Source: Ciborinia camelliae (lineage: Eukaryota; Ascomycota; Leotiomycetes; Helotiales; Sclerotiniaceae). Taken from it: 64,000 bases of DNA. The translations under genes were made by a program, and so were the position numbers. Positions 7,313 to 52,244 of the stretch are shown one piece after another. How positions within the stretch are numbered: the first letter of the stretch is position 1; each line of letters begins with the position of its first letter. The DNA is taken from positions 570,071-634,070 of the forward strand of contig JANPYM010000018.1 of assembly GCA_025890175.1 (NCBI GenBank), read 5' to 3'. The notes under the pieces were generated by a model. It was not told where the DNA came from and ran no database searches. It saw nothing but the letters and a program-made list of their open reading frames with translations.

Positions 7313-7449
7313 ACTAGCTGTCGCGGAAAAAAGATTTTCAGACTATAGATTCGTATAACTCTCTTTTTCCTTTTATTAATATTATTATTATATTATATAT
7401 AAAACCTTCTACAAATTTATAATCTAAAAACTTCTTTTTTACGATGGCT

Positions 7450-23033: not shown

Positions 23034-26000
23034 AAATTTTTTCTTTTAAAATATTTCGCTTAAGGAATTTTATTTGCTAAAATTTATTGTTTATATATAT
23101 TAAAATATTTTTTTAATTTATATTCCTATAATTATCTTTTCGTATAAATAATGATTTTTAAACAATAACTTATTTTTATTAATCCAAGATTTGTATTATC
23201 AATAAAATATTGATTTTAAATAAAATATATTTTGATATTATATACTCGTACCATCCTATTTTTTTTAATTTATTAAAGATTTTACAAATATTTAACAAAT
23301 ATTAGCTAAATATCGAAGATTACCTTAATAATTTTATTTTTAAAGTTTTTATATTTAAAATTTTTTTTTTAATATAAAAAAACAAAAGCTTTATTAATTT
23401 TTTTATTAAATAATTGGATTTTATATTTTTTATTATTTAAAATATTTATATTTTTTTTATTCTCATAATTTAAAATTCGAATTTTTAATTTTTATTAATA
23501 TTATTTTTTATATCTTTTTATATTTTTTTTTCAATTAATTTTTTTATTAATATTATAATTTTCCCTGTTTTTTTTATAATGATTATCCAACATTCCACAA
23601 ACATCTTTATAATTTTTATTAAATTTATTTATCTCCATTATACAAAATTAATTAATTTCTATAAAATTAAAAAGATATTAAAAAAGAATAATATTATAAA
23701 CTAAAAATATTTATTCTTTAATAATTTTTTATTATTATATAATAAATATATTTATAAAAAAAAATCTTATAATTTATTATTCAAATAATTTTATTTTAAT
23801 ATTAATCAATTGCTTTGTTATTAATAAAAATATAATAATATAAAATCGAAATTTGTTAAAAAACAAAAAATATAAAACCATTTTATTTTTTATTAAAAAA
23901 AATATATCTTAACCGTTTTTATTACAATTTGCAAGACGAAATATATTAGTCTAACATATAAACCTTATAATATTAAAAAAGCCATTATAACCATAATATT
24001 TATTTTTTTTAATATAAATATAATTTTAATAAATTTATTAGATATTTATTAATATTCCATAAATTACCTTTTATTTATTTATTAATTATTAATTAATATA
24101 TATAAATACATTTTTTATTTTTAATTAAAAAAGTTGAGGATATAAATATTAAAAATATATTAAACTTTAATTCAAATAATAAAGGTTTACCAAAAAAAAA
24201 AGCAAAAATTTTTATTTCGATTGTCCCTTCTGCTTTTTTTACTTTTGCAAAAGGAAAGAAAAAGAAAATTGCTGCAAAAGATAAAAAAAAAACTATCCCA
24301 AAAAATAATATTTTTGTTTAAAACACCTTTTTTTGTTTTTTAAAAAAAGTTTAAATTTTTAAAAAATTAAATTCCGAATTGTTTTATAACAAAAATTAAT
24401 AGAAGAATAATCTTTCTAAATTGGAATTTTTAAAAATCAAGTTTTTTAAATCTTTTTAATTATTTTTAAGATTTTTTAATTTTTAAATTATTTACTTTAC
24501 TTTAATTTTTTATAATTTTTTAAATATTAAATAATTGATATATACCCCTTTTTCTTTAAAATATAAAATTTATAAACCTTTTTAGAATATTATTTCTAAT
24601 CCTCCCTTATTTTTTAATCTTAATCTTTTTAATAATATAAATATAAATATAAATAAAAATATTATTATTTAATAAATAATTAATTTTGAATATATATTAA
24701 AAATTAATTATTTTTTTTTAAAACCTTAATCTTCCAATTCTATTTTATTTTTTAATAAAAACTTATTATTAAATATTTATTTTTTACTATTAATTGATAA
24801 TGATTCCCTATCTAAACCTTATACCTTTTATAAATCTTAATAATATATTATTAAAAAAAATTAATATATATATAATTTATTTTATTAATCTTTAAAACTT
24901 TTTTTTAATAATAATTTAAATATTATTAATAAAAATAATTTTTTTTTATTTAAAATTATTAAATAATAATAGAAAAAATGCAAAATCTTTTAACAATTTG
25001 ATGATAAAAATAAATAAATTTTTTTTTTATATTTTTTTTCTTATAAATATAATTTTATTATTAATTAATTAGCAATCTTTAATTTTTAATTATTAAATTT
25101 TGTGATAATATATAAATTTTTGTAATTGTTTTGGTTTATAATATTTTTATAATAATATATAAATTATTTGAAATTGTTTTTATTTATAATATTTTTATAA
25201 TAATATATAAATTATTTGAAATTATTTTTATTTACAATATTTTATTTATTTTTGCCAACATTATATTGACAATATTTCTTTGTTAAGGTAACTATTTAGA
25301 ATTATATTTGAATTTCAAAGATTCTTCCCTAATTCTTATATATCTTTTAATGGGGTATAATCTTTCCATTAAATTAAATATTATATTTTTTTTTTTTTTT
25401 TTTGATATATTAAAATTTTTTTTATTTTATATTTTAATCCTTTTTTTATTTTTTTAAATAGTGGTGGGTTGGCGATATTCTTTTTTTTATACTATAATTC
25501 TAATAAAAAGATATAAAATATATTATATATTTTATAGATAGGAGGTAATTTTAATTTGTATAATTATCCATTTAAAATAATATTAATAATTATAAATAAT
25601 TTTATAAATTGTTTTAAAAATTTTTTTTTAAATTTTAATTATTTAATATTTTTTATATTAAATATTATTAAATTATTAACATTAAATTATTAATATCCCA
25701 TTAAAATATTTCTTAAATTTTTTTTATAATTATCTTTTATTAAAATTCTTTAAATTTTTCTTATTTTTTTGTTAAAATTTCGATTTTTTTATAAACCACT
25801 AATACCTTCCCCTTTGTATCAACATTTTTGTTAATATAATTAAATATAAATTAAAAATTATATATTACCTTAAATAAAATTTTTTTTATTATACTATATT
25901 AATTAATATTATATATAAATTTTATTAAAAATAATAATAATATTTAATTATCTTATTTTTAATTTAAATAATATATAATATAATATATAAAATTTTGGTT

Positions 26001-29000
26001 TTATTATTTAATCTACTTATTAATTTAAAAATAGAATATTATTAATAACTTTTGATGAATATAAAAATAAAATATTAGATTTTCCCAAAAATAGCTTATA
26101 AATTATAACTCTTTATCTAAAATAATACCTTTTAATATATTAAAATTTTTAAATATATATACAAATAATATTTTTGTTAATTTAAATAAATTAATAATTT
26201 TTATAATAAATATATATTTTATTAATTTTATAAATTTATTAATTATTATAAAAATTATATTATAAATATATTTTTTAATTTTAAAAAAAATAAATTTATA
26301 ATAAAATTTATAATTATCTTTTTCCAAAACTTTATAAAAAAAAAAAATATTTTTAACTTATTATATAATTAATAACATTTTATTATCAAATATTAATATA
26401 TTATATAAATTTTAATATATTCCTTAATATTTTTTTTTATATTTTATTAAAAATATTTTTTTTTTAATATTTTTAATATTTTTTTTATATCCTAATATTT
26501 TTTTATTAAATTATTATAATAAACCTTTAGGATTTTTGTTTTTATAATAAAATTTGATAATATAAAAATAGTCCTATTATAAATAATTATTTTTTTAATA
26601 TTCATTTATTATAATAAAACGTTTTTAATAAATTTTTATCTCCATTTAATATATTTTTTATTTTTTATAAATTCATTATATTTCTATAATTATAATAAAA
26701 TATTTCTTATAAATTTTAATATAATATTTAATATTATTTTGTTTTTAATTATAATATTAATTATTTAATAAAATATTAATTATTTATAATCAATTTTTAT
26801 TAATAATTCCCCTAAACTATAAAAAAATAAACAATTTTTTTTTTTTAAAAAAAATTTATAATATTTTATAAAAATAATTATTTTATATTTAAATAATAAT
26901 ATATTTTAATTAAAATTATTATATTTTTTAATTTATTTTTTAATATTAAAAATATTTCATTATTATTTTTTAAATTATTAAAATAATTTAATTGTTTTAA
27001 TAACCTATTTATTAAATTTAATTTTTTAATTTTATATTTAATTTTGAAATTATATACAATAAATATTTTAATTTATTTAATTTATTTATTATTTAATTTT
27101 TTTTTAATTATAAAATATTAGAGATTATTATAATTTATTTTTATAATAATAATATAATAATTGTTTATAATATAATATTATTATTTATAAAATATAATAT
27201 ATATTATTAATAATTTTTAATTATAAATTATATAATATTATTTTATAAAATTTAATTTTTTAAAATAAAATATTATAAAATATTATTACAATAATTCTTC
27301 TAAATCAGATTTTTTTTTAAATAATTGAAAAAATATATATCCTAAAACGAATTTCGATATATTTATTTTAATTATTATTTTAAAATTTAACTAAAAATAT
27401 TATAATATTAATACAATAATAAATACCATTTTTAATATTTCGAAAAATATTTATATCTTTATACTTTATACAAAAATATTTATAACCTTCCCCTTTTCAA
27501 TTTTTTTAAATAATATTATTATTTTATTAATTATCTTTAAATATTTTTTAATAAATTATTAATAAAAATTTATAAAACCTAAAAAAATTTAAACCTCCCT
27601 TAAAATATTAGAAATAAATTATTTAATAATAATTTTAATTTTATTAAATTTTATAATAATATTATTATTTAATACTATAAATTTTAAAAATTTGATTTTT
27701 TTATTATTAAATATATATTTTTTGAATTTTATATAAAATTTATAAATAATTAACCTTTCAAATATCTAACAAATATTATCAATATACTATTAAATATTTA
27801 TTAAATAAATTAATATATTATTAAAATATATTATATATATAATATTTGTTAATTTTATAAAAACTTAATTAATATAAATTTAAAAAATAATAAAAATATT
27901 TATAAAACCAAATAATATAATTAAATATTCAAATTGCTTATAACAAATATAAAATACTATTTTTTATTCATTTTTTGCCTAAATTCAAATTCGATAATAT
28001 ATATTTTTTAAATTTAATTTAATAAAAATAATATTTTCTTATAATTAATTAAAAAATTTATTAATTAAAAATAAAAATATCTAATTCTTTTTAATTATCC
28101 AATTTAATTTTTTATAATTAATATATAACTAATAATCCCCATCCTTTTTTAAAATAAATATAATTAAAATTTTAATAAAACTTATTAAACAATAAATTTA
28201 CCCCTTTCAATTAATATTTTTTTAAATATTTTTTTAAAATTAATAATTTCTTTTTTAAAAAAATATATATTAAACCCTATAAAAAAATAATACCTAATTT
28301 TAATTTAATTTAATATTTTATTAAATAATAATTAAATAATAATCCGTTTTTTTTTTTTAAAAAAATTTACTTCAAATTTTTATATTTATTTAAAATATCA
28401 AAAATTTCTAAAATAAAAATTTTATATTTCGTTTATATTTTTTTAAAATTAAATATTTAATTTAATTATAAAATTAAAACTAATATTTTTTTATTTATTT
28501 TTTAATAATTTTTTACATCAAAATAACCTTAATAAATTTTAAATCAAATTAAAAACAAAATTCTATTAATTATTAATCGATCTCAAAATTTATCATTTTT
28601 AACTATAAAAAACTCAAAATTATATTTATATAAAAAAAATTTAAAATAATTAAAATAAATTAATAAATATATATCTTTTTATTTTTTAATACATCCATCA
28701 CTTCTACAATAAACCAATAATCTTTATAAATAAAAATATAAATTTTTAATATAAATACTAAAAACATACCTTTCCCTAATATAAATTTTTAATCTCATTC
28801 AATACATTTATTCTACTAAACTATATTAACTTAAACACCCAAATCAATAAAATAATAAAATATTATTAATTAATATTTTAACTTAAATATAACAATAATA
28901 ATAATAATAATATATCCTTCTTTATTTAAACCCAAAATTACAAAAACATTTAAAATAATTATTAAATTTTGTTATTTCTTTATTAATATACTTTACCACT

Positions 29001-30255
29001 TTTCTATCAAAAAAATTCGATATTCTTTTATCAATATAAACCCGTTTTTTTTTTAAAACAATTTTTTCTAAAATACCCCTTTTAACAATACTAACATTTA
29101 AACAAATTTTTATAAATAATAATATAATAATTTATTTATTAACATCAATAACATTTTATTAATCTCCTTTAATACTCCTAATATTGGATTTCTTTTATTA
29201 GCTAATTTTTTTATATAATTTTTCAATCTAGTTTTGCCTTAATCTTAACAAATTTTATTAATACAACGTTTTTATTGCTTCTCTATAATTCATAAAAAAA
29301 TTAAACAAAATTTAAATAATATAATAAAGTATTATATATTTTTTTAAAATAATAATTTATAATATCAATAAAATAATATATCTAATTAATATTCTTTAAT
29401 TTATATATTTATCTTATAAACTCTTCCCAAATTTCGAATTATCAAAAAAATTCAAATATCCTTTTACCTATACTAAAACAAAAACCAATAAACAATTATT
29501 CACAATATATACTATCCACTTTATATTTTATATCTTTTTCCAAATTATTCAAATAAAAAACAAAATTATTTATACTCTATTCCAAACATTATTTAATTTT
29601 TAACATCCAAATAATTATTATACATTATTAATTTTCTTTATCCAAAATTATATTATACATATATTCTTTAAATTCCATTTATATAATATTATTCGATTGA
29701 ATCACACTAATAAATCAATACTATACCATCAAAAAACATTTTTTAAAATATTATATTACATAATCTATTTTCTAAATATTAATAAAAAAATAGTACCCAT
29801 TATTACTCCAAAACATTACTTTAGCTTAAAAAAAGAAATTTTTTGTCTAAAAAATATTTGTTTTTTTATATCGAAATAACTTTTAAAACTTTGAAAACCT
29901 AATATTTGATTTAAAATAAATAAATAATATATCGCTAAAGATTATCAATATCCCAACGATTTTTTATATTTAAATAAATCAAACTATAATTTTGTTTATA
30001 ACTTTTATATTATCTCTTATATTTTATATCTATTATTCTAAAATATCACAAAAACTTTTTTTCAAAGATTTTTTAAACCCTAAAAAAAAACTTACACCTT
30101 ATTAATATACATAAAATCTACTAATAATATTATTTCGTATACTATTAATTTTAATATTTTACCAAGCGAATACAAAAATATTTTTTGTTTTTAATATTAT
30201 TTTAAATATTATTAATCTAATTAACAAATTACTTTTTAAATAAAATAAAAAAAAT

Positions 30256-30604
30256 TATTAAAATAAAAAATACAAAAAATCAATTAAATCAATAATAACT
30301 TCAAAACTTTTTATTATTTTTTAAATAAAATTTTTATTATTTTTTAAATAATTAATAATACACCATTAATTATCATTTAAATAATAATACCCTATCTAAT
30401 ATAAAGCTTTATAAACTTCCAAAACTTCTTTATTTAATTATATAAATTTATTCCATATATATTAATATTTTACAAATTAAACATTACATTAAAAATTCGC
30501 TATCAATCGATATCGAACATTAATAATCGCTAATACACCAACTTCAAATCTAAATTCTATGCCCAGGCATTTCTTTTGTTTTTATTGCTTTTTGATCCGT
30601 AACA
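30256..30604. repeat. 3' LTR (349 bp)
   Basis: Gap-free partner of 22685-23033. This copy keeps C and has lost G over most of its length. Starts TA in place of TG, ends ACA. Its last 80 bases, around GCCCAGGCA, are least damaged. Confidence 0.9.
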
Positions 30605-30609
30605 ATAAA
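30605..30609. repeat. Right target-site duplication (ATAAA)
   Basis: Second copy of the 5-bp target duplication. Removing the LTR element and one ATAAA restores a continuous satellite monomer (AAAATATAAATTTATATATT). Confidence 0.85.
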
Positions 30610-30797
30610 TTTATATATTTCATATTTTAAATAAATTAATTAATTTTAAATATAAAAAAGAATTTATATTAAAATTAAATTTATTACAAATATTTATAAA
30701 TAAAAATTAAAAATATAAATAATAAAATTAAATTCAAACTTATATTGAAATTAGTTCATTGATTTCGAAAATATAAATTTATATATTTTATATTTTA
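30605..30797. repeat. AT-rich satellite array 2, right part
   Basis: Continuation of the array at 21240-22684 after the LTR insertion. About one monomer remains before the inverted-repeat element at 30800. Confidence 0.85.
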
Positions 30798-30799
30798 TA

Positions 30800-31218
30800 C
30801 GACAAATACCTCAAATAGTATGTTTTTCAACTTTAATACTTCAACTAATATAAAAACTTTTCATTTCGACCTTAAATAGTATATATTGCTATTTCAATCC
30901 TCAATCTTTTTATAAATAATGCTAGTTTAGTCTCGAAAAAAATATAATATTTTAGTCTCGATTTATATATTATTTAAGTCCAAAAAAAATAAAATGTGCT
31001 ATTCTAGTCCTGATTTATATACTATTTGAGTCTAAAAAATCGTATAAACCTACTCCCTTTTACCGAACCTACCCCCTCTCATCGAACCTATTCCCTCCCA
31101 TCGAACCTACGAACCTACCCCCTTTTTTCGAATTTATACTATTTGAGGTCGAAATGGAAAGTTTCTATGCTATTTGGGGTATCAAAGTTCAAAAACATTT
31201 TAGTTCAGGTATTTGCCG
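30800..31218. mobile_element. MITE-like element with 84-bp inverted repeats, TA target
   Basis: Left arm 30800-30883 and right arm 31135-31218 are inverse complements over 84 bp with no gap and roughly one mismatch in five. The ends read CGACAAATACCT and, on the other strand, CGGCAAATACCT. TA flanks both ends (30798-30799 and 31219-31220), the target choice of Tc1/mariner-pogo type elements. The 250-bp interior has no open frame. It holds two imperfect repeats of TTTAGTCTCGA/TTATATANTATTT type and a short run of CGAACCTACCCCCT-like units. Most mismatches are transitions, so it has been mutated like its neighbours. Non-autonomous. Confidence 0.82.
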
Positions 31219-31432
31219 TATATTTAATCGAAAAATAAAACCTCTCGAAAACCTTAGCCTTTCTATACAACTGATAAGCCTTCTACTTCATGCTATTCTC
31301 ACCGAATGCTATGTACAGTCAATAAATAAAAATCAGAATAATGAACATCTATCCTCAAGGAGAAATATCAAGATTCTACTGTACGATCTTGCTAGCTATA
31401 CACTTTAGACTTCGACCTAGTCGAATAATATA

Positions 31433-31803
31433 CAGCAGAATTTCTTTATAAGGATCCTCTATATAAGGATAACCTTTTTATTAGGATTAAATTTTGAGTT
31501 CCGTTGGATTTTAGATATAGAAAATGCTAATATTCTTATATTTTTTTTATAAAGATTATTCTTTGTAATTAAAAATCTCAAAATTGAAATCTAGTTTATT
31601 ATAACCTTTTATATAAAAATATTTTTTTAAATATAAAAGATTTATAAAAATTATATTGAATTTATGCCCAATCGAAATTGATCGATATATATTTAGACCA
31701 AAATGCTACTCCACCGGGATTAGCCAGAACTTTATAAAAGGATACCTCTTTATATCCTTATATTTGACGCTAAAAAAAACATTCTTATAGAGAGGTTTTG
31801 CTG
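31433..31803. mobile_element. MITE-like element with pogo/Fot1-like ends
   Basis: Left end CAGCAGAATTTCTTTATAAG and right end (other strand) CAGCAAAACCTCTCTATAAG are terminal inverted repeats, flanked by TA on both sides. Sequences of the form TACAGnnnAACCTCTnTATAA are typical of pogo/Fot1-group ends (established knowledge). The 330-bp interior is AT-rich with no transposase. Non-autonomous. Confidence 0.75.
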
Positions 31804-36007: not shown

Positions 36008-37451
36008 TCATGCAAGTACCCAGCCATCTTCGGTATCATCATCCTCATCCTCATCTTCGGTGACAGAATTTGCAAGCTTTTCATCCTTGTGATCGTCATT
36101 GTCCTTGGCATTCTTTACAGGTCTTCTCATAATCTTATTAAAGATATCAGATACCCAGAAAGAACCAGTATATCTTCGACCTGCAATATCTCGAGTATGG
36201 TCAGGGTCCACACCTTTGACCTTGGTGGCAGAGTAGTCGAGATAAAGACTTTTCAGAATATCAGACTCGGTCATGGAATCCTTGTAGTCTTCAGCCCCTT
36301 CCTGACTTTCTTCATGCTGTTGACTGTGGTTTAGACTGTGTTGTTTTACCGTATTATCTTGAATTTGAAGAGACTCTTCATCATTGGCGGGGACATCAAG
36401 GTGAAGATCGTTCTCGAGAGGAGCCATGGTGTTGAAATCCTTCGAGTATCTACCTGCCTTTTCTTTCTGGTTGTCGGATTTCTGCTTGTGTGTATTGGCA
36501 ATGGCTTTGTTCAACTTTTGAATCTCATCAAATACGGAAGTGTGCAATTTGCTCCATTGCAATTTTTCCATCTTGAGCTGTTCATCAAATGTATTCGCGA
36601 TTGTTACAGTTTCATTTTTATAAAAATGTGGGGATGTCTTGCCTACCTCTTGGTCTTGGGAAGTTGTAATCTTCTGGCCTCGGGTAATATCTTTTTGTGC
36701 AGTTGCATTACTTGAAGTCTTAGTACTGGTTGTGATATTGTCAGAGAGATTACATAGGCTCGTGTCCTTGCACTTGGACTCTTCATGAGCATCGGAATCC
36801 TGCGCAAAGTTTGTTAGTATCTTAACAACTTTAGGGCAGAATCTTTAACTACTCACCATAGTTGCAACAGACCTCTTGCGCCTACGCAGAAGCTTTCTAT
36901 AATATCTCCGATTTAGCTTTAGCTACATCTGTTAGCCAAGAACGCCTCTTTGTATCGTGGTACTCGACACTTACAAGCTCTTTCTGTAAATCGACATGCT
37001 CTGCGCCCATCTTCTTTCTCACCTCCCCCTGCCTAATAAAATATTTCTCGAATACCTTGCTCTATTGATAGAGTATTAGCCGTGTTTCCATCAAACTTTA
37101 CCACCGAAACTCACATAGATTGGATCTGGGTCTTCACCAGGGAACGTCTTATCAGGAACTTTTCATATTCATTAGTAAGATTTTCAAATTCATAGGATTG
37201 TTGGACTTACAGCAGTTGATAGCCATCATGCGTTCAATGATAAACACGGAATAATTCGTGCATGCTGGTCCAAAATGAGCTATGGTGTGCTCTTTGTAGC
37301 ATTCAAAAACTTCGATGAGTGGAGCATATTTCCAATAACCCTCGCACTCTACTTGTTGTTCTAGAAGCCATTTGGCGTGTCTCAAACCACTGGCTGGCTT
37401 TGGATCATCATTTATGAGAGGGATAAATGGCGGAGATATTTGTTCAGCCAT
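36008..37451 (-). CDS. FPGxDPDPIY-family protein, long member (409 aa)
   Basis: Model: complement(join(36008..36799,36857..36922,36975..37061,37115..37158,37211..37451)), 410 codons with stop. Introns are 52, 53, 52 and 57 nt, all GT-AG. Exon 2 is 44 nt and encodes FPDKTFPGEDPDPIY; exon 3 is 87 nt and encodes SKVFEKYFIRQGEV...LQKEL; exon 4 has LKLNRRYYRKLLRRRKR. The same order and almost the same lengths occur in the paralogs at 42493, 44128, 46848 and 48614. This member has a long last exon with about 200 extra polar residues before the acidic tail, which ends DDDTEDGWVLA. No membrane or signal segments. Function and family are unknown to me. It lies on the opposite strand to the other four and about 5 kb from them. 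Confidence 0.82.
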
Positions 37452-38515
37452 TGTGGCTATCTTGAGGTTGCTGTGTAGATTTCTTGTAATAGGTTGTCTA
37501 GATACTTGATATGGTATGTGAGTTGCATGTGCTGGTAGCTCTTGATAGAATTGAATGAAAGTGTATGGTGTTCAGTGGAGCTCATAATTTATGGTAAAGT
37601 AGAAGGGTTAGAAACATGTACAGCCTCGGGTAGAGGTGCCGTATGGCACTGGGGCCACCGTGGAGACTAGCGCACGTTTCTCTCAACTAAAATTGTGTTC
37701 TATATGGAAGATTTTAAATGGTTGATGAGGGAAACGATGGTCATAAGTTTAAGGATGCTTAAAAAGTATTTGATAGAGAGGATAATGTCTTGAGTGATTT
37801 TTGGAAATCAAACAACCTGATACTGATCAATACTACTTCCTTGGACTTTTAACTCAATGTGCTGAACTCGAATACAAGTAAAGTTGTGCCAATTACGAAA
37901 TAATAATTTCATGGTGTAGAAGTAGAAGAATACATCGGGTTCGAGGAAGTTTTATTACTGAAACATCGAATGTTATCTGCCGAGACAGGCTTTTGTATTG
38001 ATGAGTCCATTGCCTAGTCAAAAATGAAGATCGAGACACAAAACCTGACTTGGAAGACGTCGCACCACAACTTCAGGGGGCTGTAAGGACTCATGAAAAC
38101 GATGTGAAGGTTGAATGTAACAACATACTCGCAATACAGTCACATACTCTATGCCACCGGTTCCGATCATAAATACTTGGCTCGCTTTGAGGCCTCAAAT
38201 GATTTTATACCTGGTGCCGAATATCTTCAAGTACATATATCAACTGTAGTTTTTTCCGCCTATCCTAGAAAATATTTGCTTTTTATCAAAATGTTCAGGC
38301 CAAGTTCTTTATTACAAGTTCCCATTTCTTTCGTTATCTCCCACACCATTACTCTCCCATGTTTACCCTTCTGTCTTCTCCGGCAAAAGTGACATTGGAT
38401 AGCATCACCATCTTGCGGCAGCTTATTAGTAGGGATTAGCAGAGAATTGAGACCCTGCCCAACAAGACCACCGTCAAACTCCACGAAACTAGGCAATCCA
38501 CTAAGTTTAACGAGA
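37452..38515. other. Intergenic, no supported gene
   Basis: Upstream region of the 409-aa gene and downstream of the transporter pseudogene. Only short open frames. Confidence 0.45.
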
Positions 38516-39949
38516 TCAGGGAACGAAATCTCCAACTCTTTCCCTCCTCTCTGTTCTATGAGTTTTGAACTTCCTCGCTGGAACCCGCTCATTGGGCATC
38601 TAATCCAACTCCCCATACGTTCAGTCTTTCGCTTCTGGAACCTCAGACCATACCAAACCATGCGATATAACCTGTGGTGAAGAAAGTCCATCCCGTTTTT
38701 CCACCTATGTTTCCTTCGTTGGTGTTGAACATGTATGGAACGACAACATTCCATACGGTGGAATAAGCGTAATTAAAGAAGAAACCGAGGGATTGAGATT
38801 TGGCGCGGATTCGGAGAGAGGAAATTTCCCCGGCGATTCGGAAAATGGAGTGACCGATGGTGAACCAGACTAGTTGAAGGGTTACGCCGACGCACCTAAT
38901 AGAAGGCTTAGTTGTGTTATCGAGTGTACAAATAGAGGTGAGGGAGAGGGAGACGCCATACCATAAAGATGCCTTGGATGAAGATACACTCGCGGCGATA
39001 CCCATGATCAAAAGCAAAACAACAGACAGTGAAATACCGGACAAGATCGTATTTCGTCTGCCGATGAAAATCATGAACCCAAAGATAAAGACAATACTAA
39101 TCAACGCGAATCCAATACGCAGCTGAATCATCATAGAAGCTTGAAATGATGATAGACCGGCACTAATCATGAAGGACGGAGTATTTGTGATGAAAGTAGC
39201 ACCAATCATTTGGTTGATACCATTAATGTAGAAAATGAGTCTCATTCTGCGCCAATTTGTTCCCTTGAAGAGGTCCATATATGAGCTTTCGTTACTCGCA
39301 CTGGCTTGCAAGTTTTCTTCGCGCGTTATCTGCACCATTCTGGCGAGAATCGGGTCTACTGAGGTGGACTTGTTGTAGAGTTTCGAGAGGGCTTTGGTGG
39401 CGAAAGGGATTTTGCCCTTCCGAACAAGATAATAGGGAGATTCTGGAACGACAAAACAGAACAAGACAATGGTGAGATGCCAGGCCCAGTTTGAGGCGAA
39501 GAGAACCTGGTATGAGGATTGGGTCATGATTGTTACGCTATCAAAAGCGACAGAGGCTGCGACGAGATACCCTAAGTTCTTTCAACTGTGAACACACAAT
39601 ATGGGACTCGAGTACTAATGAAACATAAAATAACAAAAGCGTAGCCTGACAATGCAACTTCACGAATCCTAAGTGGTGTGATCTCCGATCCATAGATTTG
39701 ACCAGTTGTCAAAGCCATACCGAGTTCGAGGGCATTAATCATTTTACCTCCAAGAAATGCTACTGGACTGCTCGCAGTGTAGATAACTGCAGTGCCTGCA
39801 ATTGAGATAACTCCAGATACACAGAAGGAGACGTGACGACCGAAACGATCCGAGATCGGTCCAGCTCCCCAGGCACCAAAACCTGTATATATTTGCCCTA
39901 TGGTATTCCATATAGATTGCCAATAATCGGAAATGATAATATGCCCCAT
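38516..39949 (-). pseudogene. Sugar (alpha-glucoside type) MFS transporter pseudogene
   Basis: Readable pieces cover most of a fungal maltose/alpha-glucoside permease-like protein. They include a DRFGRH loop, then SEITPLRIREVALSGYAF, LGYLVAASVAFDSVTI, FASNWAW, the signature PESPYYLVRKGK, and transmembrane blocks through TGWTFFTTGYIAW. Damage: the N-terminal first membrane segment is missing before 39949; the frame is broken near 39570; and after the stop at 38643 the C-terminal part continues in another frame as WSEVPEAKD, stop, TYGELD, stop, MPNERVPARKF, where intact relatives have GRTYAELDEMF. At least two of these stops fit C-to-T changes. Homology is clear from motif order; loss of function is clear from the breaks. 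Confidence 0.8.
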
Positions 39950-41108
39950 TTACTGGTACACCGAATTACATTCTAGATCGTGTTAGTCCCGACGATGGTG
40001 GGGTTGATAGGGGTTGATGGGAACAAGAGGTAAAACTGACTGGAGTGGAACCATATTCAAGCAAAGTCACACCGCAATTTTGAAGAATCGATACATCGGT
40101 GCACTCATATTGGAATAGATACAACAGAGAACGATGTCGGGTTACTGCGAGATTGGCGAAGGTAAATCGAACTCGGTTGTTGAGGCATCGTTGCCCACTC
40201 TCTCGCGCTTAACTCTCATCTCCGGATTATTGGTGACTAATTTCATCACAATCCTTTGCCTTTTTCTTTCTCCATACTCAATATCATCATCCTCCTTGAA
40301 CTTCCTTCTGATGGTTGATTTCCACAAAGACCGCCAAAGAACCCCGAATTGCATCGCGTCCAAAAAAAAAGAATATGGGTGAACCATTGCAGCCAAAGTT
40401 TAGGTGTCGTGGAATTATCCGTATATGCCGATAGGACCAGATCAAGGGCAAGGAATGGGGCGCCAATCCACCATTGAGAGAGTGATTTTAGGGTTAGGCA
40501 GTATGCGTAGGACGGTGTCATGGTAAACGATTAGATGAAGGTGAACAGCTAAGAAAACATCAGTACATTTTTAAATATGTAACAAAGTTCACAAATGCTT
40601 GGTATAAATGCATATTGAGATATGCAACAAAATCGAGAAAACCCTGATTGCTAGAACTTTTAATAGTTGAAAACCACTCACAGATAATCCGAAGACTATT
40701 TAAGTCTCTAGTCGATAGCTTTTTATCTTGGTGATCAATTACCGTTATACGAATAGTGAGTGGAATTGTCACACAACGGAGTAACATTATAAATGTGTTG
40801 TATTGTGTCTTGATAAAGTTGAATACTATACACCACTTCATCTTGGGAAATTTGGATTTTCTGATATAAGAATTTGGACAATATACAGTCGAATGAACGG
40901 AAATGAAGTGGGCACAAGGGATATAGCTTGAAAACATCGAAAGAAAGATTGAGAGGAAGTGGCAAGATTACACTAGCGAATGAGGCATGTGATTAGTGAA
41001 TGGTCCCTACGTGACTCACGCGTGACCACACTATACACACCACGGGGCTTTATCAAATAACATGTGCACTAATTTATCATATAAATAGCTGGCTGAAATT
41101 ATAAACCC
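39950..41108. other. Intergenic, possible further decayed coding sequence
   Basis: Minus-strand open frames at 40142-40521 contain hydrophobic stretches but match neither the missing N-terminus of the transporter nor any family I know. They could be transporter remnants or chance. Confidence 0.35.
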
Positions 41109-41741
41109 GTGAAATTAGAGGCTGGTACTGATACAATTGTCGAAATAGAGTCAAGTACTTTGACCACTGGATTTCTGGAATTCAGCTTCGAGGTTAAAGG
41201 ATCAGAATCTGATGTACCCAAAATCCAAATCTTGTGTGCTGAGTCTTATGAAAGCAATATGGATGCCAGCCAGCCAAGAACAGAATACGATCATACCAAC
41301 TTCAAAACCGGGAAACTATAAGGATCAACGGATACATACGTCTGTCACTCTGTTGCAACAGCGGGAGTTTATGGTAAACTTTGGGAAGGATTGCTAGGCC
41401 CCTGGGAAAAAATGCTTGACCAGAATCTGATCACTTGGGCGAAAAGTGAAAGTATGGTGAGAAGTGACTTTCATTGATGGAGTGCTCCTCCGATGTATGA
41501 AATTGTGAGGGAAATCGTTGGTATCAAATATCCGGCCACGAAGGATCGTGATGATTTGACAATGGTGATTCAACCTAGATTTGATCTGGGCAAGCAAATG
41601 AAGGGGAGTTTTCTTCTTGCGGAAGGAGGTAGTACAAATGCGTCCTGGGATTACCTTCGGGTTATTAAACTTACAAGTTCAAGTTATTTGTGCGTCAAAC
41701 TGGTCCTCCTTGGAGATCTTCATGATATCAAGCTTGCATAG
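41109..41741 (+). pseudogene. Relic of a GH78-like (alpha-L-rhamnosidase type) glycosidase
   Basis: One continuous frame of 211 codons interrupted by two stops (TAA at 41319 and TGA near 41475). The first part (TLTTGFLEFSFEVKG, ILCAESYE, FKTGKL, stop, GSTDTYV) resembles the N-terminal beta-domain junction of fungal GH78-like six-hairpin glycosidases. The second (AGVYGKLWEGLLGPWEKML, then ITWAKSESMVRSDFH, stop, WSAPPMYEIVREIVGI) resembles the C-terminal end of the barrel, where relatives read RSDCHAWSA. The two parts are directly joined, so most of the catalytic barrel is deleted. No ATG starts the frame. The assignment rests on remembered family motifs. It sits between a dead sugar transporter and the unknown-family array. 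Confidence 0.65.
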
Positions 41742-42492
41742 GGAGTGGAACAATATTTCCAGCTACAGCACTAGGTTTTAGAAAACGTAATATAACAGAT
41801 CAGCTACAGGTGAAAGTTTCTCCAGCGATTCATCATGATGAATCCGTGCCATTACATGCAATTTGTCACGGATTCAGTCCTGTTTGTCATCACAAACTGT
41901 AGTTTATGGGGATATGTTTGTCCGGCGAGCATGCCCCAGAATAATTTAACTGGTACTGCAGACTGTACTTCCGAGAACAATCACTTCAAGGACTCAAATT
42001 TTGTATGAAACCAAGACTCAATCATGAACATTTATTTCAATTATCGATCTAAACTACATGTGGAAAGATGGCATGGCTAGATAGTCAATCACTTCAAAGA
42101 AAGTGATCTAGAAACAAAAGAAATCTCTAGAATCCACCAATGAAAGGAAAGGATGCTTTAGAAAGACCGTCATCTCGGTTCCATTTTCAGGGGCTTTGTT
42201 GGTTACATAAGACATGATGGAGGTCAGATTCGCTATAAGAGACTATGATGCCCATTGACAAGACATTCTTATTAGAAAATCAAGCGCAAAACTTCACTTT
42301 ATAAAATGAATTACATCTAGTTACAATACCCATCCACTAAAGGTGGGGCTCAAAGTTGTTCTTTACCGCTCCTCGCTCTTCGACTTTCCAAAATATTTCA
42401 CTCTTGTAGCAAAACTCTTGATTTCAAAACAAGATTTCTCCCTACGGTAACTCGACTCTTTTAATTACTCCAATATTAAGAAGTTTATCATC
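41742..42492. other. Intergenic upstream of the 42.5-kb paralog
   Basis: No supported exon. It presumably includes the promoter of the following gene. Confidence 0.45.
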
Positions 42493-43626
42493 ATGGGTTG
42501 GGCAGATAATCTTCCCCCTCTCGACGAAGGCAAGGATGAACCAGTCGAGTTGACTTACGAAGATCAACTTCACTTTCTCATGCAGCGGGAATTTGACCAC
42601 ATCCCAATGCAGTCCCAATTAGCTGAGAGATTTGGTTTAATTCGTGGGATGAAGTACATCAAAAGATTCTCCAAGTTGTGGCATCCTAATGCTTGCAAAG
42701 CCTACATTACTTATTTCACTTAGGTCGTCGCTGCGCAGATTCTCTGTAGATATCACATTTCTTCCTCGGTTTTCTCTGAGCTAACTTAGGATCCAGGGCC
42801 CGATCTTGAATTTCCCGGTGTTGATCCCGATCCAATTTACGTAGGTTACTCCTTTCTCCCTCCTTGCGACGCATTAATATCATTGGGTTTAGTTATGAGC
42901 TGATTATTCATGGTTAGACTAAAGTTTGGTCCGAGTATTTCAACGCCGCAGAGGAGCAGATACATAGTGACATATTGGGTTTTGGTACACAAGACTCGAC
43001 CCAAGAGAATGGCCGCATCAGAAGTCACAAATTTCCCGGTCTCACTGTAGGTTTCCGCCAAAACTGTGCTATGATGGTAAAAGTTGAACAAATTAAAGTT
43101 TGAATTGAATAAAAAATTCTCCAAGAAGTTGTTTGATGCTCACCGTGAAGAAGCTGAATATACCGCAGATCTAGTAAGTACACTGCCTAATCTTTGGTTT
43201 GTCATTTTTCTAATATGACAAAGGCAATCGCAAGATTGAGAAGAAATACCCAGTCCAATATTGATAATGGACCCGCTGTTGAAGAGGTAATATCAAGATA
43301 TTCAGATGATTTCATGTGCGAGAGTAATTAGGCTGACTTCACTACTACAGGCTATTGCAAGTTTATCCCTAAGTCGACCCACTATTCATGACGAATACTT
43401 CAGAGTGGCTGATCATGTTGTTGAATCCGCCGATGGCTATGCCGCAGTTGAGGCCGCCGATGCGGGTGATATCACTACAGATTCTGCAGACATTGAGGAT
43501 GACGGGTTTGTTCTCTTATATAGGCTGTATGGCATTATTCCAATACCGATTTTCATTGTATTTATGCGTTATGGTGATTGCATTGAAGGCAGGCTGCATC
43601 TAGGAATGGGACAGGACAGGTCGTGA
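42493..43626 (+). pseudogene. FPGxDPDPIY-family member with in-frame stop
   Basis: Spliced as join(42493..42745,42797..42840,42918..43046,43099..43173,43224..43286,43351..43626) the frame is consistent over 280 codons, but a TAG lies at 42721-42723 inside exon 1, at a site where the three paralogs that align here have sense codons. Exon 2 is 44 nt and reads WPDLEFPGVDPDPIY. Exon 3 begins TKVWSEYFNAAEEQI and is longer (129 nt). Exon 4 reads FELNKKFSKKLFDAHREE, matching the basic helix of its relatives. The end has the acidic motif EDDGFVLL and then runs 26 residues beyond the point where relatives stop. So there is one nonsense codon and probably one stop loss. It may be a recent pseudogene, a readthrough case, or have an unusual splice that removes the TAG. 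Confidence 0.7.
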
Positions 43627-44127
43627 GCAGTTGCCGTCGTTAATTTCCACTGGCCCGGCAGTTCTTTTCGTTGCCCAAGGGCATTTGATAGATTCCACAA
43701 TCTAGTTGCCTGCCACATTTTTTGGACTCCTCGTGCAATCTGGGTACTAGATTAGAAAAGTTCTTATGATGATAGAATCGTGGTACGATCAAATGGAAGG
43801 TTTCAATAGTGATAGTGAATCGCCAAATTTATCCCAATAATAAGTATCTAGTATATAATTCGTTCCTCTGAATCATCATATAAGTTCTTAACATATCTGC
43901 CGTATTAACTCCACCGCTTCTTCGTTTCGCACCGTATCTAGTTCTCTTTAACACTTTGTATTATTTATAGACTTCTGCATGGTTTCAGAAATTTACGAAT
44001 TTCTTTTCATAAAAGATACGGCAAACAAAATATAATATACAAAGTCCTAACGTACCACAATAACCAAATTAATCAAGGACTTCAATCAACAATCTTAATA
44101 CACAATACAACCCATACACCAGCAATC
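43627..44127. other. Intergenic between array members
   Basis: A 501-bp spacer with no supported exon. It holds the 3' end of the 42.5-kb member and the promoter of the next. Confidence 0.45.
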
Positions 44128-45028
44128 ATGAACGCATCAGCCCGCGCCCGCCACCAAGAAACCTTCCAATTCGAATTCAGCAAGAAACTTCCTCCCCTCG
44201 AACCCTATGACGGTTTGGACTCTCCGCCTAAACTCGAATACCAAGATCAGATTTCCTGGATCGCTGTGAGTATAAGTTTTCCATATTCCTTGCTTCACCA
44301 TTGACCACCCGCCCACCTCTCCACTCTCTCCTACCAACCTCTCAATGTTTCATGAAAACGCATCACTAATTCCAGCGCTCTCAGAACTACGCAACATACA
44401 ATAACTGTCCCTCCGAAGTTCTCTGTGAATCAAAAGCCACCAATTGGCAACAAATGCTGATGAATATCGAGAATACGAATAAACGCCGACATCCAAATGT
44501 AAAGGAGGAATATATCAAGTGGAGAAGTCAAAATATGATTGTTAGACGTCTTTGGCCGTATGCGCAGTTTCCTGGGATTGACCCAGATGAAGTTTATGTG
44601 AGTATTTTATTTTGTGTGGGAGGGTAAAGTGAATGAAGCTGATGGAATGGGTTAGACAGAAATCCGTAAGAAATACTGTTCTGCGGCTAGAAAATTGGCA
44701 TGGGAGTTGGACGAAAAGGGGTTGGATTATTGGGCTGCTCTGGTGGGTTCATATCGCATTCTTCATCCATCGAAATATTCATAGAACTGGTCGACTATAG
44801 GTTCAACTCAATGAGAAATATAATCGGAAACTGTCTGCGGCACGCAAAGCCAAAGTTAATACTGGTGGATTTGTGGAACGTCTTTGTGCTGTTAAAGTTC
44901 GGCGGAGTAAGGAAGAAGCTGGAGAAATGGAGGCGGAAGATGAGTTTGTGGTTGTGGAGAGGGAGGATGGGGATGTAGATTTGGATCAGACTGGAGGGGA
45001 TTGGGACGGGGATGATTGGGATATGTAG
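44128..45028 (+). CDS. FPGxDPDPIY-family protein (224 aa)
   Basis: Model: join(44128..44265,44376..44597,44656..44742,44801..45028), 225 codons with stop. Introns are 110, 58 and 58 nt. This member has an extra early intron (after SWIA) and has lost the intron before the 44-nt exon, so the core YAQFPGIDPDEVY is fused to the preceding exon. The next exon is exactly 87 nt (TEIRKKYCSAARKLAWELDE), as in two relatives. The last exon opens VQLNEKYNRKLSAARKAK, the shared basic helix. The acidic tail contains EDEFVVV, equivalent to the C-terminal motif of its relatives, followed by a further acidic run ending DWDGDDWDM. No targeting signals. Function unknown; about 225 residues of charged, probably helical protein. 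Confidence 0.8.
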
Positions 45029-46847
45029 GGTAGAGTTCAAGTTTCTGCGGTTGGGATTGGTCTTGATGCTGGTGCTGGGTATGGATATTGGTGGGCTCGT
45101 ATATTCTCTCTGGTGAGCTTTTGCCGGAATTTGACCTGCTTTATTTAATCCTCCATCTTCGTTTGGGATTTGGGTGGATTTTGTTTTTGAGCACATTTAA
45201 TTTACCTCGGGATGCTCATCTGACAATCTCATCTTGTGGGTATGATTTAGAAGAGCTCATCTCACAGATGACTTGCAGGATATAAGGTTATTGCACAAAA
45301 ATTCTTAGTTCAATAGGTAGGTATATTGCTGATGGCTAAATCTTTCTATTTTGTGCAATGTTCTATCTCTTCTTTTATTTGGATGATGGTATCTTACATT
45401 TTTCATTATGATGCAGTGGTGATTGGGTTTTGTGATTTATTTAATACTGCTTTGATATATGGGTTATGGAACATGGAATGAAGAGTGATAAGCCATTTAA
45501 GTAGCGCAGCAAAATTCATCAACTAGAAGCTTGTCAGTGTGATGAAAATTGGACAGGTTCTATTATAAAATGACGATCGATATCTGACTACGAGATTGAT
45601 GTGCGATTATTATCTGCCCCTGCATACTTACACAATCTATCCTTGAATTGGTATATCATTTACTCTCATCTCAAAACATTATAGGAATTACACCATTTTC
45701 TAGCTTGAGGATGAATTTTATCATTAACTCTCATCTGAAATTCTTCTTTTTTTGGTTTCTTTATTAACTTGAAGTTTTATATTTTCATCCATTCAACAAT
45801 GGACAGAGCGTCAACTAGTGGCAAGACCAAATGATAGAGGGCTAGTTGGTAGATACCGGTGTTATATCCAGAATTCATCAGTATTCGGCCATTTTAGAAG
45901 TTCATCAGGTGGTAATTCTGAGGCAGACACCGAATTTCCTTCGCGGGGAGCTTTTTTTGCAGGTTGTATTATCTTGCATCATGGATGTTATCATTCGTCG
46001 CTTCCCCCTTAACCTTACCCCTATCTAATGTCAATAGACAGGTGCCACCATTTGCTCTTTGCGTTGTCTGGTAAATTATTGTGATGGGGATCATGTTATG
46101 TTCCTTCTTCTGTAAAAATGCACTCTTGATGGAATGGAAAAGTAAGTAAATAAAAGTCTTTCCATTCGTAAGAGACGCTAGCAAAATTAATTATTTGATT
46201 GCCAATTGGCTGAAATGGCAAATCTCGACCGGGGTGATTATTAATTCGATGCTGATTTAAAGCCAAGGCATAAATCGAATAATGCAGCCACTTCAACTCA
46301 ACCTACCTAGAAAGCGCCGAGCCCTGAGTTTACAATGCTCTAGCTACAGTGGAAAAGTGTGAAGAGCTTCAATTATTTAAATGTAAGTATTTTAATTGTT
46401 TCCACATCTTAACGACACTTGATATTCCAGATAGATAAAATATACCTACATGAAGGGTTGAGCAAAAGGTAGCGGTGAGCCCTGGTAGAATCCAAACGGT
46501 TACCATCCTATAGAGGTCAAATACCCTGGTGCCCCAAGCCTGCCACCTATAAGAAACTGTATAAATGAAACAAATTCAGTGATCAACAGCTCTTATTCCG
46601 ATCCGAGACTACATTCCAGACTTTTGAACATGCTATGCGGGAAGCCGCTTCCTCTTTAATATCACCTCGCCAAATATCTACCTAGCGCACTGGCAACCAA
46701 GCTAAACAACCAAGCTAAAGTGATATCCATCAACCTCAAGAGTCAACACCTTACCTCGGTTTTCAATGATTATTTCGCAGAAACAGTTTTTATATTTCAA
46801 GACGCAACAGCTTTACTCATTGTCTGTTTATTCGAATAACATCCATA
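45029..46847. other. Intergenic 1.8 kb
   Basis: No sixth paralog could be found here: neither the FPGxDPDP core nor a 44-nt exon is present. Open frames are short. The last 200 bases precede the ATG of the next member. Confidence 0.5.
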
Positions 46848-47791
46848 ATGCCACTATTATCAAGACCTCCGTTCATCCCACTAAGTAACCCCAATCCTCC
46901 TAGTGACTCAGAGATGACCTACGACGAGCGTTTTCACATTAACTGGCTTCTTCGCCATTCAATTCTTGCCGAAAAGAAAATTGGTCAGCAATTGCTTGAC
47001 CTGGCCACGTTCCAAAAGTACGCCAGCTTGACGAGGAGCTTCCTTGCTGTCGAAGGCCAGAAGACGAGCCATATTTATCTTGTTTATTTGCTGCATTCAT
47101 TGTTGGCTGAGCGACTCTGTAAGTTCAACTCCCATCAACAACTTCATGATGCGGATGGTTAATATATACATGAAGTTCCTGATGCCAAGTTTCCCGGAAA
47201 AGATCCAGATCCCACATTTGTCCGTACTTGACCGATCTGAAATTACTGCTTTAGATTGATCAACTAATTTTCTTCGGACAGACTCGCATGTTAAAGGATT
47301 ACGTCTTGGTACAAAACGAGAGAAGGCGTATTTTATCCGTAGTTAGGGTGACAGATGCTGAGATTCTCCAAGAACTCGTCGGTGCCCTTGATCCTCATTA
47401 TGGCAAAACCGTAAGGCTAACATCTTTAGACTGGCTTAGCGAGGCGATACAGCGGGAAACTTGCTGAGGCCCGAGCGGAAGGAGATAATTATAAATGGAT
47501 TGTATGTAACATTTCATTGTTTTACTTTTTTGGGATGATTGAAGATTGATACACTCTCTAACTACCTCCTAGGGTTCTCCTACTGAGTTCTATTATCCGG
47601 AAAACCCAGCTGGTAATCATCCAGTGGGCCTCGCAATAGATGGGAATGTCCGGCTAAATGACGGAAATGAGAATATTAATGAGGAGGAGAGCGAGCTTAT
47701 CGAAAGGTTTGAGCAAGTTCTTGGGGATGGGTTGGATGATAAAGCAATGATTCTTGAAGAAGAAGAAGACGATGGCTGGATTACGGTCTAA
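46848..47791 (+). CDS. FPGxDPDPIY-family protein (233 aa)
   Basis: Model: join(46848..47118,47176..47219,47282..47377,47430..47501,47573..47791), 234 codons with stop, in frame. Introns are 57, 62, 52 and 71 nt. Exon 2 is 44 nt (FPDAKFPGKDPDPTF). Exon 3 is 96 nt and ends TDAEILQEL. Exon 4 is 72 nt (LARRYSGKLAEARAEG). The last exon is acidic and ends EEEEDDGWITV. Two donors read GTCCGT and GTCGGT, unusual at position +3, but both boundaries are fixed by the paralogs and by AACTAAT/GCTAAC branch sites. The N-terminus (LSRPPFIPLSNPNPP) resembles that of the 409-aa member (ISPPFIPLINDDPKP). Function unknown. Confidence 0.82.
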
Positions 47792-48613
47792 AGGATGAGT
47801 TGGGATATTGTCACAGTGACGGCCATAGCGTGACACTTTTGACCCAGAGCAGCAAAACTTGCTGGTTAGAAAGAACGTCGTAATAGCACTTTTCAATCGT
47901 TTAAAGGCGCAAAAACATGCATTGTTACTATTCCGGTGAGTGATATGATTCATGTTTACAGTTTCAACATAGGCCGCCAAAATCAATCACGGTATGTTAT
48001 ATTGGATACTGGAATCACTAGAGACTAAAGGTAGCATTTGGAATGTAGGCTGTTGTTCAATCAGTAAATTACCCCGGAGAATTTGAATGAAAATACCAAG
48101 ATGTAAAAATAAACTTGTTTTTTAAAATCTTAACATTCAAAAAATATTAACCAATGACTTCGGCATTTTCAATATTAAACTCAATTTACCACAATGAAAT
48201 GGATGGCAGTATTGGCCGTCTCTTATTCTGTCGGAGAAAAATTCGCTGGAAGATAGAAACCCCGTGATTAATTTGCATGTACTGAAAAATATACATGGAA
48301 CTAAAGCAAAGCAGATCCAAAATCTTGCCACTAAACTTCTCTTCCCTTGAATGTATAATAGTACTTCACAACCCTCATAGTGAATCGGCACTAGTCGCCT
48401 CTTGCCCGTATATCACTAGCGTGGAACAAGGTTATACTTCAAAATTCACATTTCAATATCCAAATCCGCTTTTCTCCAACACCCGACAGTTATTTCACAC
48501 CTTCGAGAAACACTTACAATAATTGCCGAAATCTCTTATTCAAAATCCTTTTGGACTTACAAATCTAAGCCCTAACAACAATTCTTACATCATTTCTACA
48601 GCGAAAGATTACA
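47792..48613. other. Intergenic between array members
   Basis: An 822-bp spacer; open frames on both strands are short and without domain. Confidence 0.45.
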
Positions 48614-49402
48614 ATGGACGACCCAAAGTTCACACCTAAGTTTATCCAGCTTGAGAATAAGAATCCAGACACTACCCGGCCCTTCGATTCTGAGGGATTC
48701 ATTGAGGTCTATAAATCCAAGAGCCGACTCGAGGACCGCAATCACTACAATGATGTAACATGCCAATACATTATAAAATGCAACGAGTACTTTGGAAAGA
48801 CAGTGGAACCCAACTACTATCTGTTTGTCTTGTACAAAGCATTTTGGGACCAAATCTGTGAGTGCAGATATTCACAATTATTTCAATGAGGGGTCAAATG
48901 TGCTAATTGAGCCTGGATCCTAAGTTCCCAATGAGGAGTTCTTTGGTTGTGATCCTGATCCTATTTACGTATGTATTATTGGCTTCAAGCAGTGGAGTTA
49001 GATAGCTAATGTTATTATAGTCCGAGGTCTTTGCGGAATACTTTACTGCTCAAGGGAAATTGAGGGAGGATTTGGCAAGCCAAGATATCAACATGTCTGA
49101 GCAAGTTGTAAGTGCAGTATGTCTTTAAACCGCCAGAACAGATATACTAAAAAGCTCAGGTACGCTTGGCTGAAATTGGCAAGGCCTACAACGAGAAACT
49201 TGATCTTGCACGGAACACCTCTAGACAGGCACCGGAGAAGCATGGGAAGGATAATAACCCGAAACCCTATGAAAATTATGATTCGTTGTCAGATATGAAT
49301 GATTCTGACAGTTATGAGTTCCTTGATCTAGAGCCTAATGCCACCGATGAGTTTATGAAGCGCAAGATTGAGGATCATGATGATAGCTGGGTTTTGGTCT
49401 AA
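48614..49402 (+). CDS. FPGxDPDPIY-family protein (205 aa)
   Basis: Model: join(48614..48857,48925..48968,49021..49107,49160..49402), 206 codons with stop. Introns are 67, 52 and 52 nt. Exon 1 ends with phase 1 after YLFVLYKAFWDQI, as in the paralogs. Exon 2 is 44 nt (FPNEEFFGCDPDPIY), exon 3 is 87 nt (SEVFAEYFTAQGKLREDL), and the last exon starts VRLAEIGKAYNEKLDLAR and ends in the acidic tail EDHDDSWVLV. It is the shortest and cleanest member and the best reference for the family: about 80 N-terminal residues, a 15-residue core, a 29-residue helix, a basic helix, a polar linker and the terminal acidic W motif. No signal peptide or membrane segment. Unknown function. Confidence 0.85.
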
Positions 49403-50433: not shown

Positions 50434-52244
50434 TCAAACACTTTTTCTGGATGGTCCAATGTCAATTTTTTCAGTAACTTCCTTGTCAGATGTCATTTTT
50501 CTCTTTACCAAGTCTTCCAAATCAGCCACATCGCAATGTTTAACACCCTCAAACAACTCATCAATCTCCTCAAGTGTTTTCCCTCGTGTCTCCACCCAAT
50601 ATTTCCAGATCAATCCTACCTCCAATACATCCCATGCGCCGTTCATCATGTATATTTTCCATCCCATGGCTTCCTGCGCAAATGGAAAGGAAAACACGAT
50701 GAGAATGGCAACTCCGTTGAGGAAGAAGGTGAATAGACCCATTCCATTGGCTCTGATTGGATAATTAAGAACTTCTGGAGGATATAGATAGAGGAGTGGT
50801 GTCCACCCGAAAGAATAAGCCCCTTGGAAGAGGAAAATCGCAGCGACTGTACCATAGACACCGGACTTATTCGTTGATGTCCCATAAACTTTTATATACG
50901 TTAGAAAATTGAAGAGCTGAATCGAAAGGAGAGGGATATACTTTTTGTCAGAGCACCAACGATGAAGAGGAAAATTGTAAGGAGGGATGTACTAATGATA
51001 GCCGTCGGACGTCGGCCAAGAATATCTGCATAGTATGTACCAACTAGAGCACAGCAAAGACACCAAGCATTGAGAATTATGTTCTGTTGAAGTTCAACGC
51101 TCACCCCTTGTTTTGCGAAGCTCGGAAACTCACAATTTGAAGTTGCGTGGTGGTATCAGTGATACCGGCATTGTCAAGCATCGTTCCCAAGTAGTAACTC
51201 GCGATTACATTACCTAGCAAAGGTCAGCGCTACATTCGATTACAAAATTGGTTACCTACCTGAAATGGTAGAAATTACTGCCGCCGAGATTGCCAATGAT
51301 ACTCGTTTCCTGGCAACTGGTGTTTTTACCATCTGCTTTAAACTCAAGGTCTCACCCACGTTTCTCTCATACTCTATTGTATCAATAATCTCCTTGTATT
51401 GTGCAAGAACAATAGGATTAGCTGTATCTCCATTAGCGTGGGTCTGAGCTATAACCATTAAAGCATCTTCTGTGCGCCCAACATAGGCCAGCCATCGAGG
51501 TGATTCAGGGACGAATGGCAAGATAGCAATACAAAGGATACTGAAGATCCCTTGAACTAATGAGGGGGCTCTCCATGCCCAAGTTGAGTCGTAAGTAGCT
51601 GTCCGATACGTCACTCCAGCTGCAATCAAACCTCCTGTTTTAAATTAGATCCCTGAATCAACAAAGGACACTCGGAATTCGAATCGGAATTCATACCAAC
51701 ATAGTAACAATCATTCAACACCCCTAATCCCCAAGCTCTCCAATTATAAGGAAGCGTCTCTGCGACATAAGTCGGGCCAGTGAGAGTTGATGCAGAAGTC
51801 CCGTACCCAACCAAAATCCGAGCTATCACAAACATCGCAGTATTTTGCGCTGCCGTTTGAAGCACGATAGACAAAAGAGTTCCGACAGCGGCCCAAAATA
51901 ATGCATACCTGCGCCCGATCATATCGGTCACTTGTCCATATGTCAAACCAGCAATAGCTCCACCAATCCAAAGAGCGGCCGTATTCAGAGACAGAGTCGC
52001 GGTATTGAGGTTAAAATAATCTGTATAGCTGGGGAGGATGTTAAGTCCGTTCCTGCTTGTGGTAAGTATTCGCGGATGAGGTTTGGGAAGGGACTTTTTC
52101 AATTGAGAAAACCAACATCATCGATCCATCATATCCAAATGTGGTTGATGTGATACATGAACATAGGACGAGGAGAATTGATACTCTCCATGAGGAGGAA
52201 GAAACCCTTGGATGGGTCATTCGGCCAAATATTGTCTCCGCCAT
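50434..52244 (-). CDS. MFS sugar transporter, lactose-permease/hexose type (511 aa)
   Basis: Model: complement(join(50434..50888,50942..51083,51134..51213,51260..51634,51697..52052,52117..52244)), 512 codons with stop. Introns are 53, 50, 46, 62 and 64 nt. It should move a mono- or disaccharide across the plasma membrane by proton symport (family knowledge). Motifs in order: GYDGSMMNGLNILPSYTDYF after the first membrane segment, DMIGRRYA loop 2-3, PESPRWLAYVGR before the central loop, ADILGRRP in loop 8-9, and RGKTLEEIDELFEG near the C-terminus in place of the usual PETKGRTLEEID. Twelve hydrophobic blocks fit a complete transporter. The GTTGGT donor of the first intron is slightly unusual but fixed by the conserved MMNGLN junction. 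It is divergent from the secreted glycosidase-like gene at 52995, which could supply its substrate (inference). Substrate unknown. Confidence 0.9.

Follow-up and report, generated by a model that had tools for sequence, protein, structure and literature searches.

The autophagy receptors Atg19 and Atg34 of yeast carry an Atg8-interacting motif at the C-terminus, and the gene family of Ciborinia camelliae described here resembles them in having, at or close to the C-terminus, acidic residues that precede W/F-x-x-hydrophobic. It differs from the yeast receptors in that no sequence relation is shown, that one member, G1, departs from the strict consensus, and that binding of Atg8 is putative. The J-domain (DnaJ), in which the HPD motif sits between helices II and III, was also considered and rejected: at the corresponding position, the family has (F/W)P and then one of D, N, Y and A, and in a profile comparison the hhalign score of 11.5 came from an alignment elsewhere and was reached by 20 of 60 column-shuffled controls and by the reversed control. 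As outlined in PMC7060139, C. camelliae also possesses CCL-SSP, a small secreted cysteine-rich multi-copy family with a signal peptide and ten conserved cysteines. What the five loci G1-G5 have in common with this outline is that they, too, form a multi-copy family in C. camelliae.

The window, i.e. the whole stretch of 64,000 nt that was analysed, corresponds to C10:570071-634070 in a 46.2-Mb genome of 27 contigs. TTAGGG telomere repeats are found at the end of C10 (C10:648320; L041, about 4094-4250), 14.3 kb past the window, and therefore the whole window is subtelomeric, with the five-locus cluster lying 28.8 to 42.2 kb from the telomere end. All five loci are present where the original prediction had placed them (36008..49402; Table 1). 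They belong to an old family without a named domain that is seen in Ciborinia and two Monilinia species, and one of the five is probably dead.

Table 1. Loci of the family and C-terminal motifs (positions in the window)
Feature	Exons or parts	Span	Strand	Remarks
G1	37211-37451, 37115-37158 (44 nt core), 36975-37061, 36857-36922, 36008-36799	36008..37451	-	hand-built; 409 aa
G2	core exon 42797-42840; exon 3 42918-43046; helix exon 43099-43173	42493..43626	+	boundaries by eye
G3	44128-44265, 44385-44597 (core fused), 44656-44742, 44801-45028	44128..45028	+	221 aa; orthologue of M. laxa EYC80_003408
G4	46848-47118, 47176-47219 (44 nt core), 47282-47377 (donor GTCGGT), 47430-47501, 47573-47791	46848..47791	+	233 aa
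G5	48614-48857, 48925-48968 (44 nt core), 49021-49107, 49160-49402	48614..49402	+	205 aa
C-terminal motif D-G-W-V-L-A, G1		36011..36028	-	directly before stop codon
C-terminal motif D-G-W-I-T-V, G4		47771..47788	+	directly before stop codon
C-terminal motif D-S-W-V-L-V, G5		49382..49399	+	directly before stop codon

The models of G1, G3, G4 and G5 were built by hand, and the junctions in all four are GT-AG, with introns of 52 to 119 nt. A fixed exon order with fixed phases, as originally predicted, is found in large part: a 44-nt phase-1 exon is present in G1, G2, G4 and G5 (4/5), and the exon after the core begins in phase 0 at each of the five loci, but G3 has no separate 44-nt exon: there it is fused to the preceding exon, so that the core lies in a 213-nt exon, which follows an intron at a different place. 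G1, G3 and G5 share a length of 87 nt for the exon after the core, which measures 96 nt in G4 and about 129 nt in G2. In case of G4, the 96-nt form with the donor GTCGGT was chosen over a 57-nt form with GTAGTT, a judgement made because it yields an LQEL segment that resembles LQKEL of G1. The second exon of G3 was shifted to the acceptor 44385 to fit the M. laxa protein described below, and the other two joins had been fixed earlier; the M. laxa protein is gap-free over the three exon joins of G3, one of which (44385) was thus set to fit it. The Pfam scan of the spliced members and the database searches with the full and core alignments made use of a G3 form with three extra residues or a trimmed one. 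For every one of the 18 exons in the four models, the frame that was used outranks the other five by codon score, with a narrow win in case of the 44-nt exon of G4 (0.19 to 0.18), and as the score penalises stops, this count partly measures openness. The sole deposited C. camelliae protein that was found, NHQ30_011262 for G1, is 100% identical to G1 across the matched part, and all but its first five residues could be placed at the locus; it is a model with other junctions, in which exons 1, 2 and 4 of the hand-built version, and hence the core exon, are absent. Residues 1-150 of G1 matched this deposited model alone in the protein database, and for the loci G3, G4 and G5 the word-based, length-limited core search came up with no protein from C. 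camelliae.

The five loci have a common core, (F/W)P-x3-F-x-G-x-DPD-x2-(Y/F), which is followed by a helix exon and then by a basic helix. Leave-one-out profiles were run against the six frames of 178 kb (the window plus 114 kb), with ranks given among non-training frames and any frame of a locus counted. In these 178 kb, the held-out core exon ranked first in 5/5 cases (E 9.9e-6 to 2.7e-3; top non-family match 0.97 to 2.6), the held-out exon 3 in two of five (the rest at 11, 13 and 215), the basic helix in three of five (the rest at 2 and 89), and exon 1 in none of the four cases that were considered (2, 38, 108 and not found; G3 left out). Because of these ranks, the core can firmly be regarded as homologous across the five loci, while homology of exon 3 and of the basic helix appears partially supported, and the first exons would be linked through position and phase only. 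Of the common motif series that had been predicted, it is thus the core that stands throughout, and the other parts were found first in some of the loci or, for exon 1, in none. When at most two mismatches are allowed, the core pattern matches nine places in the whole genome, five of which are the G1-G5 loci, and the control has no match; with three mismatches there are 35 matches versus 12 in the control. These 35 comprise the five loci, a site termed C4 and 29 others that are known by their matched letters alone and among which there may be more diverged copies. The site C4, which lies outside the cluster and reads FPGIDPDEV, was rejected as an extra copy, being without a junction and without a helix downstream. 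In protein searches of the genome, each query recovered only its own locus (G3 in case of P0001), apart from one weak match to C4 (E 2.16), and as the sister genes were missed, such searches are insensitive here.

Outside of C. camelliae, the core alignment detected two hypothetical proteins in the protein database, EYC80_003408 of M. laxa (E 5.5e-30) and DSL72_000947 of M. vaccinii-corymbosi (E 5.1e-27); the full family alignment had no match at E 0.01. Over 165 core positions, identity to G3 amounts to 65% for the first and 59% for the second protein, and over the core they are 21-24% identical to G1, G4 and G5, while G3 and its C. camelliae paralogues share 22% and the paralogues overall 22-37%. 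Both are continuous across the G3 joins and have the tail segment EAED-x-FVVV as G3 does. They differ from the cluster in that the G3 type is the only one found, in being unnamed, and, in case of M. vaccinii-corymbosi, in an additional C-terminal stretch. In an unrooted tree, a long branch (support 100/99) separates G3 and the two Monilinia proteins from the other three, G1, G4 and G5; G5 is a long branch itself, and the inner order of G1, G4 and G5 is unsure. Since there are Monilinia orthologues and the tree splits in this way, the G3 duplication would predate the separation of Ciborinia and Monilinia, barring gene transfer between the lineages. At four-fold sites of shared residues, 13 of 55 pairwise comparisons between paralogues agree, with about 25% expected at saturation and the pairs being non-independent, and it is this saturation alone that would speak for an old divergence within the group of G1, G4 and G5. 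The family had been thought to be young, which is contradicted by the G3 orthologues in two Monilinia species together with the saturated four-fold sites, and the five loci very probably represent a real protein family, and an old one. Fast evolution, which had been claimed as well, is plausible for G3 from its 59-65% identity between genera. The family sample consists of six sequences in all, two of which are from outside the C. camelliae genome, and the word-based, length-limited database search suggests that the family may be missing from Botrytis and Sclerotinia.

G2 is probably a pseudogene. Its exon 1 has an in-frame TAG at 42721, ahead of the homologous donor at 42746, and its frame overruns the usual family end after DDGFVLL, with the last open frame stopping at 43626. 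This status is uncertain because an alternative donor at 42644, which is phase-compatible by hand count, could bypass the TAG, albeit with loss of the preceding helix; G2 entered the analyses in pieces only. The stop in G2, the subtelomeric place and the low identity of the paralogues over the core could indicate that the whole cluster consists of decaying or little-used orphans under weak constraint and without an important function. This is rather unlikely, as G1, G3, G4 and G5 have open frames with frame-correct codon use in all 18 exons, and as full-length G3 orthologues are deposited for both Monilinia species.

What kind of protein is encoded? In Pfam-A, none of four spliced members (best E 0.28) and none of three database proteins (best E 0.03) reached the curated cut-off, so that a confident Pfam match of the spliced proteins was not found, and NCBIfam gave a best E of 0.02 over six members. 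A search for a solved relative yielded none that was convincing, and fold searches with predicted models had no clear match, with mostly unspecific helical bundles. In the library of papers that was searched, DPDPIY and the locus tags appear nowhere, and among the papers listed by searches on broader topics none was on this family, judged by title and the start of the abstract. Within the searches of Pfam, NCBIfam, solved structures and folds, the view that the family is undescribed and has no known domain thus stands; the profile and fold searches produced neither a named family nor a clear fold, and as database relatives the two Monilinia proteins only. The protein family is real yet nameless, and one member, the G3 type, has been kept in two genera of plant-infecting fungi.

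In G1, G3, G4 and G5, no strongly hydrophobic segment is found (maximum of 0.96 over 19 residues and N-terminal maximum of 0.71 over 11 residues), and by hydropathy none has a signal-peptide-like N-terminus. By this measure, the products look intracellular. The additional tail of the M. vaccinii-corymbosi protein is more hydrophobic, with a 19-residue maximum of 1.48. The cysteines number 6, 4, 0 and 3 in G1, G3, G4 and G5, and not ten as in the CCL-SSP outline, from which these four also differ, judged by hydropathy, in lacking a hydrophobic N-terminal segment. That the products could be secreted, host-directed effectors may come to mind in a flower pathogen with another, secreted family that comprises 73 members according to the outline in PMC7060139, but with such N-termini, with 0 to 6 cysteines and with acidic tails, this is very improbable. 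The original prediction had favoured lineage-specific conflict or interaction genes, and a role in conflict or non-self recognition would fit a tandem, divergent group at 29-42 kb from the telomere with an AT-rich block nearby. The positive evidence is limited to the subtelomeric place and this block, and as the Pfam scan showed no domain at all, as hydropathy gave no sign of a membrane segment, and as the duplications look old, this explanation has to be regarded as improbable, too.

The predicted models of the two Monilinia proteins, for which the G3 exons were included as further rows, are all-helical, at low confidence (mean pLDDT 57 and 49; pTM 0.54 and 0.34). In the M. laxa model, the helices 87-105 and 113-136 enclose an FPGAD turn, the second helix beginning with the PDxxY part, and a further helix from 143 is next; the corresponding helices in the M. 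vaccinii-corymbosi model are 87-107 and 113-138. The tail is acidic, and model confidence is low there. In the 40-75 residues past the core, the net charge is +5, +8, 0 and +2 in G1, G3, G4 and G5, and in the remaining tail it is -16, -15, -15 and -10. A basic helix followed by an acidic tail had been predicted, and while the tails are indeed acidic, the basic charge is missing in G4. This charge pattern could be taken to mean that the products are nuclear, with the basic helix LNxKYxxKLxxAR binding nucleic acid or chromatin and the acidic tail serving as autoinhibitor or activation segment. In view of the uncharged G4 segment, of the Pfam scan that had no match at cut-off, and of fold matches that are mainly unspecific helical bundles, such a nuclear role appears unlikely.

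The original prediction had not mentioned a further common element, the acidic-flanked tail motif D-x-(W/F)-(V/I)-x-(V/A), which is present in all four intact tails and in both orthologues (DGWVLA in G1, DEFVVV in G3, DGWITV in G4, DSWVLV in G5, DEFVVV and DGFVVV in the orthologues). It is exactly C-terminal in G1, G4 and G5, whose last residues are DDTEDGWVLA, EEEEDDGWITV and EDHDDSWVLV, respectively, with a long acidic tail in G1, and internal in G3 and the orthologues. In shuffled tails, the motif occurred in all four in 0 of 20000 trials, a figure that is overstated, as the motif was picked after viewing the tails. The 178 kb hold 2037 open frames with a length of 40 aa or more; 12 of these end with [DE]-x-[WFY]-x-x-[LIVA], a looser pattern, and three of the 12 are G1, G4 and G5. 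An Atg8-type motif (acidic, then W/F/Y-x-x-L/I/V) lies at the shared place in G3, G4 and G5, while G1 ends with A. In acidic tails it is unspecific, and as all four shuffled tails contained it in 1123 of 20000 trials, it is expected there by chance.

We tentatively prefer the possibility that the products work inside the cell as helical adaptors, with the tail motif serving to dock a partner, because this explanation uses the conserved parts together. Such adaptors would be mostly helical, with two helices flanking the FPGxD turn and another long helix with the basic stretch coming next, and a disordered acidic tail would bear the motif, at the very C-terminus in G1, G4 and G5. Binding of a first partner would fall to the helical part, and docking onto a second to the acidic-aromatic tail, which would be exposed; as the tail motif resembles the Atg8-interacting motif, Atg8 is among the candidates for this second partner. 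The held-out core (5/5), the coding frame (18/18), the Monilinia orthologues, the helical models, the tail motif and the lack of a hydrophobic segment speak for such adaptors; the chance-expected generic Atg8 motif, the final A of G1, which is off the strict consensus, the low fold confidence, the more hydrophobic stretch in the M. vaccinii-corymbosi tail and the small sample of six sequences speak against them, and the likeness of the tails may reflect common descent only. A more specific version, in which Sclerotiniaceae-specific paralogous adaptors of selective autophagy combine divergent helical heads for different cargoes with a constant C-terminal Atg8-docking tail, would be a long shot. 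If the tail motif is a docking site, the family offers a compact case of a constant tail with a divergent head, and otherwise it is one more orphan family restricted to a lineage.

The surroundings of the cluster contain further genes and repeats. Sugar-transporter frames (Pfam PF00083) lie at 38643-39949 (-), between G1 and G2, and at 51255-51629 (-), past G5. At 57024-63537 (+), there are open frames with AAA_11/AAA_12 helicase domains and, behind them, two AAA_lid_6 frames, which together perhaps constitute one large gene. Two DUF6590 (Pfam PF20233) genes or pieces at 379-888 (-) and 11702-12463 (+) are in opposite orientation, with 17 of 35 residues alike. AT-rich blocks at 20700-31500 and 6000-8000 have a GC content of 13% and 12%, respectively, falling to 6% at 26-28 kb, and the 6-8 kb block includes an open frame of repeated NNT. 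In these two blocks, TA/AT is 0.97 and 1.09 and (CA+TG)/(AC+GT) is 1.13 and 0.6, with about 0.7 and 1.3 in the surroundings, a dinucleotide bias that may reflect repeat-induced point mutation.
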